From positions 2,458,501-2,522,500 of the forward strand of contig NC_092323.1 in NCBI RefSeq assembly GCF_036785885.1: a stretch of DNA of 64,000 bases. Reading direction: 5' to 3'. The first letter of the stretch is position 1; each line of letters starts with the position of its first letter. The position numbers and the translations under genes are program-made. The notes under the pieces were generated by a model, which ran no database searches, had not been told where the DNA came from, and saw only the letters and a list, made by a program, of their open reading frames with translations. Of the stretch, positions 12,385 through 16,093 are shown one piece after another. This stretch comes from Coffea arabica (Eukaryota; Streptophyta; Magnoliopsida; Gentianales; Rubiaceae).

Positions 12385-13343
12385 TATAAACATGGGATAA
12401 TTGCATAAACCTCCCTTGAGGTTACTAATCCTTTGCAAATTCAGTCCAAACGATTAAAATATTGTTTTAGGGAGTGAAATTAGAATTTTTTACCAAATTT
12501 GTCCTTTGTACTACATGTCCAATGAATGACAAAATACTACAAATCAATTAACAATTAATAAACTTTAAGGAGTATAGTTTACAGGCAAATGTGCATTACC
12601 TATTTAAAGTACCGGCTCTTTAAGAGTATTTTACTTTCAAACATTTAATTTAATACAAATATTTACGCTCAAATACAGATTTGTATTTACTTTCAAATAT
12701 TTAATTTTTGTTAAATACAAAATCTACCAATCTCTCTTCAGTAAAAATATTAATATAATACTTTTTCAATTTTAGTTACAAACATTTATGTATTTAACAT
12801 AAATTAAATGATTCAGAATAAAATGCACATAAAGAACAAATACTTTACTCGTGTAATGGATGAAAGCCATAAAAAATTAATACTTTATGGGCCATTTATT
12901 TTTTTAAAAAAATATTTAATTTATATTAAATAAATAACTTATCGATTTCCTTTTTGCAAGAATATAACTATAACAATTTTTGAATTTTATTTACAAATAT
13001 TGATATATTTATCATAAATTAAATATTTGAAAATAAAATACTCGTAAAGAGCTGGTACTTTAAATGAGTAATGCGTGTTTGCCCATAAATTATACTCTTT
13101 AAAATTTATTAATTGTTAATTGATTTATAGTACTTTGTCATTCATTGGATATGTAGCACAAAGGGCAAATCTAGTATAAAATTCTAATTTCACTCCCTAA
13201 AATAATATTTTAATCATTTGGACTAAATTTGCAAAGGATTAGTAACCTCAGAGGAGGTCAGTGTAATTTTTCAAACTACAGGGGAGGTCAGTGCAATTGT
13301 CAGAAACCTCAGGGGAGGTTTCTGCAATTATCCCTATAAACAT
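12385..13343. mobile_element. Non-autonomous Mutator-like element (941 bp) with 9-bp target duplication
   Basis: The element spans 12394-13334. It begins GGGATAATTGCA and ends with the reverse complement, TGCAATTATCCC. On both sides sits the same 9-bp direct repeat TATAAACAT (12385-12393 and 13335-13343). The terminal inverted repeats are long: roughly the first 210 bases match the last 270 in reverse complement, with an insertion of repeated 'aggggaggtca' units in the right arm. The interior is AT-rich and has no transposase. Long inverted repeats with a 9-bp target duplication are the signature of Mutator-like elements. The intact duplication and well-matched arms suggest a fairly recent insertion. 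Confidence 0.85.
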
Positions 13344-13453
13344 TTGCTGCAAAATCTTACTTAAAAACCACGAGAAATTTCTAATTTTGTGATGAATTTT
13401 AAAAAAATTCTACAAAAGGGGTGATTTTAGTAATGGATTCCGTCCGGGGGTCT

Positions 13454-13575
13454 TCGCATTCGTGGAATGCGAGTTCAGTAGAGCTCGCATTTCACGAATG
13501 CGAGGTTAGAGTAGAGCTCGCATTCGCGAAATGCGAGCTCTACTTATTGAGCTCGCATTCCGCAAATGCGAGCTC
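13454..13575. repeat. Left hairpin cluster (GAGCTCGCATT / AATGCGAGCTC units)
   Basis: Four palindromic units stand in a row: 13454-13473, 13483-13504, 13512-13542 and 13549-13575. The third is a perfect 13-bp stem with a 5-base loop; the fourth an 11-bp stem with a 5-base loop. Stems share the core GAGCTCGCATT with its complement, while the loops differ (GTG, CGCGA, CCGCA). Varied loops with kept stems suggest that pairing or a palindromic binding site has been maintained. Confidence 0.85.
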
Positions 13576-14330
13576 TAATTTAATTTTTTTTACTAGCTCC
13601 CCAGAGCTCTCTAGCAGCCTCTATATTCGTAAAAAAAGAAAGGAACTCCTGGGTCAGAGAATGAATTCCACTTCCCTGATTAGCACCAATCGTCATGAAC
13701 TGGAAAGGCTAGCTCAGAAGATGGCTAGGCCCCTGTTAGCACCAAAAGCGTTAGGGGGCCCGCACTGGAGGCATCAGAGACTTCAATGTTAGTTTTCTTG
13801 AACTGCAAATCTTCCAAAAAGAAAAAAAAAATTACACTTGACTCTATTTCTTTCAGAAATAGCGGGCAGGCAAAGCAAAGAAACGAAGCTGACTATCATG
13901 AATGGATGTCCGAGCTAGAGAATTTTTTCCAGAAAATAGTAAGAGCTAAATGCGAGCTCCTAAATGTTTTTTTTTTAAATTTTGCAAATATTTAAAATTT
14001 TGCAAATAGCTCGCATTTGATAAATTTGTCCTCCAAAAATTGTATTTAACTTTTTTGTTAGATTTCGCATTTATAAGTATGACTTTCAGAAAATTAAATT
14101 CAAACTTGTTAGGAAAAAAATTTAAAATGAAATTTACGAAATTTAAAATGAAATTCAAACTTAATATAATTTACTATACATGCATAATTCTTTTATAATA
14201 AAAAAATTGGTAATTGTACGGTTGGAAATACGTTATTTTATTATAATACATTTAAATGGGGGAAAAAGTACACATGCATAGTTCTATTTGTTACTTTTCA
14301 TTATTATTATTATTATTATTTTGCTTGCAG

Positions 14331-14579
14331 GTGCTTATTGTAGCAGGAACTAGTACCACATCAAGGGCGTTGAGCTGGGTTATCTCCCTGCTATTGAACC
14401 ATAGGCACGTTTTGCAAAAAGCCCAGGAAGAGATTGACTCTTTTGTTGGTAAAGAGAGATGGGTAGAAGAATCTGATATCAAGAATTTAGTCTACCTACA
14501 GGCCATTGTCAAAGAGACAATGCGACTACATCCACCAGCACCTGTACCTATGCCACGCCAAGCCGACGAAGACTGTAAC
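14331..14579 (+). pseudogene. CYP82-type cytochrome P450 exon fragment
   Basis: Reads like the start of the second exon of a CYP82-family P450. It begins right after an intact acceptor (TGCTTGCAG). It shows the I-helix oxygen-binding region AGTSTTSRALSW, then RHVLQKAQEEIDSFVG, the K-helix ExxR motif (KETMRLHPPAP), and stops abruptly after DEDCNVA. The heme-binding cysteine region and the N-terminal half are not recognisable. Hairpin-bearing transposon sequence follows within 30 bases. The fragment is about 83 codons, while a P450 is about 500 aa, so it cannot encode a working enzyme. It lies inside the proposed Pack-MULE and is best read as captured host sequence. Confidence 0.85.
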
Positions 14580-14608
14580 GTAGCCTTGTCTTGGCGCCAG
14601 CTCTCAGT

Positions 14609-14663
14609 GAGCTCGCATTCCGGGAATGCGAGCTCCAATTCGAGCTCGCATTTTCGGAATGCG
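14609..14663. repeat. Right hairpin cluster of the same family
   Basis: Two units: a perfect 12-bp stem with a 3-base loop at 14609-14635 (core GAGCTCGCATTC), and a shorter one at 14647-14663. The outer arm of the last unit matches the outer arm of the first left-hand unit in reverse complement (GGGGTyTTCGCATTC), so the hairpins belong to the element's terminal structure rather than to the captured P450 piece. Confidence 0.8.
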
Positions 14664-14760
14664 AAAACCCCTATTTGCAGAACACACTCCAAGAACCGCC
14701 CTCGTTGTAGAATTCTTTTTTTTTTTCCATCATAAACTAAGAATTCACCCTAAAAACCAC

Positions 14761-16093
14761 ACGTGAAGATGGTTGATCCGAGAAAGAACGGGTGTGATTC
14801 GAGTACTTCGTAAAGAAGAGGAGGTGAAATGCGACCATCAGTTGTTCGTCTTCTATCTTCGTTTACATTTTCCAGCCCGCTAAAGGAGGTGTTATTTTCT
14901 TTTTCTTGCATTGGTCTATAATTGTACCTAATTTTAGGACGATGCCGCGTGTGGGTGAAATGCGTGTGTTGTCTAATCTAATCTTTGGGGTGTAAATGGA
15001 CTAAGTTATCATTACAAGTTGAGGACACTTGTGCTGTAATAAGTTGAAGAAATTACAGAAAGTAAAAGATCTCTGGGAGTTTGATGAGTTGTCTTCAGTT
15101 TTTCTCCGTATGCATCAGTACCTCAAAGGTCTGGGTCTGTACGTACTCGAGTGAGCTGATTAAGAAGAAAGTGTAGAGACAATAAGTAGGAGAGAGTTGC
15201 TGGTGAACTGATTGAAAGCAACAGAAGCGATCCGCCAAATTCGCGTATTGAATTCCACGTGGTTGGGGTGTTAGCTCCATTGATTTTGTGTTTGTGTTGT
15301 GGCCTTGCCATTCATCCAACACAAAAGGAAAGGGTCCTATGACCTATCCAGTGTCTGCGCCGCGAGTTAACACGAAAGGGCACAAACGGTCCCAACCTCA
15401 TTCATGATTCATGCATACAAGCAGCAGGTTGGTTGGAGTTGAGTTATAGCAAGTATTAACATCACCTGAAATCTGATGGAGTAATTTTCTTCTGGCCGGT
15501 AATCGGCGCCGTCCAATTGACAGGATTAATGGAGGAGGAGCAATTGGCAAGCACGCTGATCGAGTTTAAGAAAATATGATATCTAGGGCATGCCCTATGG
15601 GGTCCGAAGCAACCGCCAAATTCAGCTAATCCCTGTCGATGTTGATTTAATAACAATTTTTGTTTTTACGAGAAAAACAGGAGGAAAGGTGTTTAGAAGT
15701 AGCGGCCAGCAGCAGTCCCCACTCCCTCTTTGGGTGGCTGCTGGCTGATGGTGAAAAGGAGCCATTAGCGCAATGGCTGCTGGAGCACTGTCATAATCAT
15801 AACTGCTGCTTTCATACCAAGTAACAGTTTCACGGTTTCTGGAAATCTTCTTAGCTTTTTTACAGATACATATGACCCCACCAAATAATTAATGTACCTT
15901 TGTCTCTCCAAAAGAAGAAGAAGAAGAGAAACAAATAAGAAAAGATGTTACAAAATTCCTACCGTTGGTTGTGTTTTGTGTCCTAGGAATTGGATACTTC
16001 AAAATTTTCACACCGGGGATTAACGCTTTTTTACAGAGGCCGCACAAACACGAGAATTTTTACAGAAGCAAGCAATGAAATCCAAGGGGACCG
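14761..16093. other. Intergenic DNA and likely CRK 3'UTR
   Basis: No convincing gene. The stretch nearest 16093 should include the 3'UTR of the minus-strand receptor kinase. Short frames at 15095-15322 and 15462-15656 on the minus strand have no features of a known protein. Confidence 0.4.

Follow-up and report, generated by a model that had tools for sequence, protein, structure and literature searches.

Mutator-like elements make target duplications of 9-10 bp, and their terminal inverted repeats are usually long. Pack-MULEs, reportedly described from rice and other plants by Jiang et al. in 2004, offer the closest parallel to an element that we analysed in a 64,000-nucleotide stretch of Coffea arabica DNA (the window). 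Like Pack-MULEs, the coffee element is non-autonomous, has inverted ends and carries a fragment of a host gene whose intact parent lies elsewhere; duplications of 9-10 bp are a further likeness. Unlike Pack-MULEs, it has organelle-like cargo, its cargo was apparently passed between element types, and no matching Mutator transposase was found. Excerpts of Gisby and Catoni (2022, PMC8903248) describe Pack-TYPE elements enlarged by fusion of neighbouring copies, with groups A, B and AB, the examples being PIF, mariner, CACTA and hAT elements. The coffee element resembles these fusions, as excerpted, in being a chimera of two related groups, but here a 5' half and a 3' half are joined at a short shared stretch instead of lying side by side. 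Mosaic organelle inserts in nuclear genomes, as far as excerpts of PMC7037861 and PMC6215612 go, likewise consist of short pieces set end to end, and in the organelle-like patch described below pieces 1-3 share 4 and 2 bases at their two joints; unlike those inserts, the patch lies inside a DNA transposon and was multiplied along with it. Organelle inserts co-amplified with retrotransposons are mentioned in the excerpts of PMC7037861. The Coffea MITE Alex-1 (178 bp, 18-bp ends, 3-bp duplication in the excerpts of PMC3180848) is also a non-autonomous inverted-repeat element; it differs in size, ends and duplication, and was rejected as the identity of the present element, which belongs to a separate family. 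In a literature search covering mostly papers outside subscription, no title or abstract opening was found that joins such elements with organelle cargo; some of the papers listed contain both terms, and the strings 'mitochond' and 'organell' occur 0 times in PMC13317346.

We read the window element as a non-autonomous transposon with terminal inverted repeats, Mutator-like and of the Pack-MULE type, that would be moved in trans by a transposase encoded elsewhere and would have been built in the order proposed below; we put the probability of this reading at roughly 0.8. The element occupies positions 13372-14750 of the window (1,379 bp; Table 1), and the 10-bp direct repeat that the preliminary description had placed on both sides of it, TAAAAACCAC, is present and was read directly. 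Its inverted ends are imperfect, as that description held, but the length of about 46 bp first given for them fell short: the alignment of the two ends covers about 90 bp, scoring 30 where the highest of 500 shuffles reached 24, and inclusion of the subterminal palindromes extends it to about 150 bp. The longest open stretch in the element, 159 aa, is the P450 frame; of the ORFs, the family scan covered the P450 piece. The left side of the element is adjoined by a separate dispersed repeat (12399-13340) with inverted arms of 264 nt that are 87% alike; it contains short GAGGTCAGTGCAATT repeats and has about 30 further places among 40 scored candidates.

Table 1. Features of the element and its target site, in window positions.
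Feature	Position	Strand	Basis
Left target-site duplication (TSD), 10 bp, TAAAAACCAC	13362-13371		read directly; exact TSD at fixed ends
5' terminal inverted repeat, starts GAGAAATTTCTAATTTTGTGATGAATTTT..., imperfect, ~90 bp	13372-13461	+	end-to-end alignment; 25-mer search
5' subterminal palindrome array, GAGCTCGCATT...AATGCGAGCTC	13454-13581		repeat families and inverted pairs
Whole patch, 320 bp, replacing 13 bp of patch-free L038	13592-13911		comparison with L038
Patch piece 1	13595-13649	+	93% to tandem ~1.42-1.44-kb unit, unplaced contigs C122/C112
Patch piece 2, 84 bp	13646-13729	+	100% to nine near-identical organelle-like contigs, including C123
Patch piece 3	13728-13782	+	98% to tandem ~1.31-kb unit of contig C110
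Patch stretch, 24% GC	13783-13836		matched element copies only (40 scored of 110 candidates)
Patch piece 4, 37 bp	13837-13873	+	100% to C122; 97-100% in C112/C122 units
Patch stretch without source match, up to core joint GAGCTAGAGAATT	13874-13911		comparison with L038
AT-rich core, mostly common to patch-free, P450-free copies (element 541-768 and 790-914)	13912-14281		copy comparison
Captured 3' end of parental P450 intron, AG acceptor	14282-14330	+	identity to three parental genes
Captured P450 exon 2, first 254 bp; ends at GTAGC	14331-14584	+	parental genes, Pfam, motifs
3' subterminal array, GAGCTCGCATT...AATGCGAGCTC palindromes	14596-14671		repeat families
3' terminal inverted repeat, last bases ...ATTCACCC	14657-14750	-	end alignment; 23-mer search
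Right TSD copy, TAAAAACCAC	14751-14760		read directly; exact TSD at fixed ends

The ends recur throughout the genome, as the transposon reading of the preliminary description had implied. The assembly searched comprises 1,197,963,845 bases in 131 contigs, C1-C22 being tens of megabases each; allowing at most one mismatch, a 25-mer of the 5' end was found at 225 genomic places and a 23-mer of the 3' end at 221, against 0 for either reversed control. Positions were analysed for the first 100 matches listed for each end. Among these listed ends on C1-C14, 54/91 5' ends have a 3' partner no more than 60 kb away, and the span is 703-1,735 bp in 44 of these pairs. Exact TSDs flank 32 of the 38 two-ended copies that were fetched (26 of 10 bp, 6 of 9 bp); among the other six, three match at 9 of 10 TSD bases and three are without a TSD. 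When the left flank of one copy was set against the right flank of another, 0/1,402 combinations matched over at least 8 bases. One-ended loci (e.g., L011, L013, L038, L045, L058 and L061) were omitted from the count, and since the homeologous pairs L002/L003 and L007/L008 share their duplications, the independent count is 30/36. The terminal ends are similar across 36 copies.

Taken as a whole, the element is Pack-MULE-like in anatomy and behaviour, and the proposal that a P450 exon was captured and moved by such an element is supported. The Mutator membership of the family is probable; the case for it is built on the duplication length (9-10 bp) and on the ends, as no transposase sharing those ends was found among 150 scored MULE domains (of 2,147 candidates) and 109 listed ends. 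Within 20 kb of these ends there was one of the scored MULE domains, against 0.55 expected by chance. That domain, on C5, was rejected as the autonomous partner, as a 3' end closes the element at 1.66 kb and leaves the domain outside. A pair of ends at C2:44220299/44223341 was likewise rejected as an autonomous element, being an inverted duplication of a small element. At this locus (L079, C2:44220280-44223360) the arms are about 754 bp long and 98.5% alike, with the family member in one arm; the stretch between the arms reads, we presume, as a PIF/Harbinger transposase remnant. A 6.4-kb element at C6:3688471, which remains a candidate autonomous partner, has no open stretch above 128 aa in the two stretches of it that were read. 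Other superfamilies were considered and rejected: hAT, as there is no exact 8-bp duplication among the 38 copies; CACTA or PIF/Harbinger, whose duplications are of 3 bp as against 9-10 bp here; and Helitron, as inverted ends and target duplications are present.

Mobility was assessed by joining 170 bases from each side of nine copies with a single TSD and searching the genome with the result. The joined flanks matched across the join in 9/9 copies. For L005, L052, L043, L053 and L030 the match lies on the presumed homeologous chromosome (94-99%), the pairing of homeologous chromosomes being our inference; for L004 it is found at a distance of 78 kb on its own chromosome (99%), and for L006, L044 and L046 the target has paralogous or dispersed copies that provide the match (96-99%). 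In 5/9 cases there is no difference between the matched lengths; in L006, L052, L053 and L030 they differ by 1-14 bases, with the match of L052 being 9 bases short. A nested site on C2 (C2:45313874-45315514, L011/L045) holds a type A copy, as defined below, with the TSD AAGAGGTGTC, which is split by another family member with its own TSD, CGCACTGGA; uninterrupted copies represent the pre-insertion state of this site. The nested family member contains about 1.3 kb of other DNA. For the window copy, a clean empty site was not found at the homeologous site on C13, where the element is absent and 13340-14854 is replaced by about 250 bp; because that site is rearranged, no clean empty site can be claimed for this copy. 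The target of L044 (C2:42816954-42817840, TSD TGGAAAGCTG) has uninterrupted paralogues and reads, as we take it, as the end of the coding region of a leucine-rich receptor-like gene.

The gene cargo is the + strand piece of a P450 gene with its intron acceptor retained that had been recognised in the preliminary description: window positions 14334-14585 match Pfam p450 (6.8e-25, profile positions 270-352), and the piece consists of 49 bp of intron with the AG acceptor, ending at 14330, followed by 254 bp of exon 2 in an open frame from 14331. AGTSTT and KETMR, which we take to be the I-helix and ExxR motifs, lie inside the piece, while the heme loop FGNGRRICPG occurs in the parental genes only, past the breakpoint, so the motif content given earlier stands. 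A search of the genome with 14282-14584 returned 32 rows, namely 18 in 17 element loci, 3 genes and 11 distant or short matches; the count of 17 assumes that two C12 rows, separated by about 47 kb, belong to a single split element. The three genes, two on C19 and one on C20, supply the parents that had been anticipated, being 98.4-98.7% identical to the piece over 303 bp. They have two exons with open frames; their exon 2 reads through the heme loop, and exon 1 is open in the fetched part, its start lying outside that part. An unbroken P450 homology past the element borders, which would have spoken against capture, is absent within this genome: homology ends at both internal joints and the parental genes run on past them. 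CYP82 is the name we presume for the captured piece; assignment to that family would call for more than 40% identity with named CYP82 proteins. Among PDB chains, isoflavone synthase 1 is the nearest relative of the parental exon 2, which leaves the P450 family undecided.

The P450 piece, which has neither the gene start nor the heme loop nor the remainder of exon 2, was most likely carried along as a passenger. A functional exon instead, whether expressed as protein or as a small RNA acting on the parental genes, would fit several observations: among 16 aligned copies the acceptor is kept in 15 (lost in L005), 15 have no stop and all 16 are free of exon insertions, while the window peptide equals that of the parental gene L050 over 84 residues. 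Set against this are the stop in L049, the missing heme loop and the loss of 6 or 20 exon bases in four copies, which form two homeologous pairs. Since the P450 copies have diverged little, open frames are expected anyway, and the differences in the piece are too few to judge selection; on the available sequences we regard function as very improbable and retain the passenger reading.

Copies with P450 cargo fall into two types. Type A, to which the window copy belongs, comprises ten loci (L001-L008, L052 and the split C2 copy L011/L045) and carries the organelle-like patch together with 283-304 bp of P450, corresponding to positions 1501-1803 of the parental gene L047 and ending at 1783 in L007 and L008 (nine copies compared). 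Type B comprises seven loci (L043, L044, L046, L049, L051, L053 and the split C12 copy L061/L058); its six unsplit copies have no patch, and 454 bp of P450 (L047 1350-1803) are present in 6/6 of them. At the left joint of type B, AATT is common to the parent and the element core; at that of type A, the parental intron and the core (L038: AGTTCTTTCTATTT) have TTCT(ATTT) in common. In the copies compared, both types have the same right joint, GTAGC|CTTGTCTTGG (as seen in the window copy and L044), followed by a common 3' part. As a longer, 454-bp piece with the same right joint exists elsewhere, type A probably took its P450 piece and 3' end second-hand from another element. Had the two types instead captured P450 independently, in elements of the same kind, the differing left ends of the piece would be accounted for, and the tree of the 303-bp P450 piece, which is star-like with 0/15 inner branches supported, indeed gives no supported grouping of A and B apart from the parents. 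Two independent events would, however, have had to arrive at the same right joint and 3' end in the copies compared, and at the same non-parental base, differing from all three parents, that occurs in 15 of the 16 aligned copies (the exception is L052), and we therefore consider independent capture improbable. Because the tree does not separate the types, the direction from B to A rests on the piece lengths and the joints.

A second-hand origin can be laid out as four steps. An element without P450 or patch would first have captured 454 bp of a P450 gene at the shared AATT, giving type B. In another lineage, the organelle-like patch would have taken the place of a 13-bp stretch. A switch at the short shared TTCT(ATTT) would then have joined the patched 5' half to the P450 piece and 3' end of type B, giving type A, which would finally have been copied to at least ten loci, starting before the subgenomes separated. 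L030, which has the patch without P450, may be a deletion derivative of type A or its forerunner.

Type A was compared with the cargo-free L038, in which 13 bp stand between AATTTTTTTT and GAGCTAGAGAATT in place of the 320 bp of the patch. The 84-bp piece is present at 11 element loci, the ten of type A and L030. The nine unplaced contigs that contain it share 99-100% identity across 6 kb (5.6 kb in one of them), while their chromosomal matches are scattered and shorter, at 91-100%; near-identical unplaced contigs with scattered chromosomal matches are what an organelle genome and its nuclear inserts would be expected to give. The tandem units matched by other pieces have a period of 1,312-1,315 bases in C110 (L076) and 1,419-1,436 in C112/C122 (C122 being L077); aligned over 630 positions, the two kinds of unit show 67% identity, and their GC content is 45.5-47%. 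We take them to be plasmid-like and to resemble plant mitochondrial minicircles. Such minicircles are mentioned for Vicia faba in excerpts of PMC3646248.

Judged from these matches, the patch is organelle-like and probably mitochondrial. If it were instead a nuclear satellite or other nuclear DNA, the gene searches would cause no surprise: searches of 9 kb of the 17.8 kb of C123 (Pfam on five ORFs, tRNA, Rfam) turned up no organelle gene, and those of the C110 and C122 pieces no Rfam family; COX3 was found nowhere in the assembly, and COX1 matches only on C10 (C10:508962-511261), in two pieces that are a probable nuclear insert of mitochondrial DNA and not on unplaced contigs, so that none of the unplaced contigs can be linked with a mitochondrial gene. 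A nuclear origin sits poorly, however, with the near-identity of the nine unplaced contigs as against their short, scattered chromosomal matches, with the GC content of the organelle-like contigs (0.455-0.49 against about 0.37 in the window), and with the confinement of the tandem units to unplaced contigs and elements among the matches listed (40 scored of 110 candidates), and we regard it as unlikely. Returning to an organelle source, the fuller scenario is put forward tentatively and at somewhat less than even odds: a break would have been repaired with several mitochondrial pieces, some of them from a related pair of plasmid-like circles, about 1.3 and 1.4 kb in size, the patched element would have been rejoined to a P450-carrying one, and both cargoes would have spread to nuclear loci.

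Copies on the homeologous C5 and C6 share the same site and TSD and show 20 differences over 1,268 positions; their flanks can be aligned over no more than about 231 and 191 bases. The shared site and duplication suggest that type A probably predates the separation of the subgenomes, barring later exchange. Over the whole element, eight type A copies have diverged by 0.9-4.9%. Divergence between the window copy and the one on C8 is 0.91%, and on C7 the site gives a match across the join, from which it appears that copying probably continued after the separation. L002 (C2:5554556-5558913) and L003 (C1:4643705-4648062) are identical over 4.3 kb, flanks included, which likely reflects recent homeologous exchange or conversion.

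While this kind of element is known, the two-step build, with second-hand cargo and an organelle-like patch, is unusual. The family provides a step-by-step case of how a gene-carrying transposon is assembled, with joints, a likely order and empty sites, in which gene cargo was taken up in one element and then apparently handed to another; and as the genome looks allotetraploid, homeologous sites can be used as natural before/after pairs. If the patch is mitochondrial plasmid DNA, a DNA transposon would have dispersed organelle plasmid sequence across the genome of a crop, and this would constitute a route by which organelle plasmid DNA becomes multicopy nuclear sequence.
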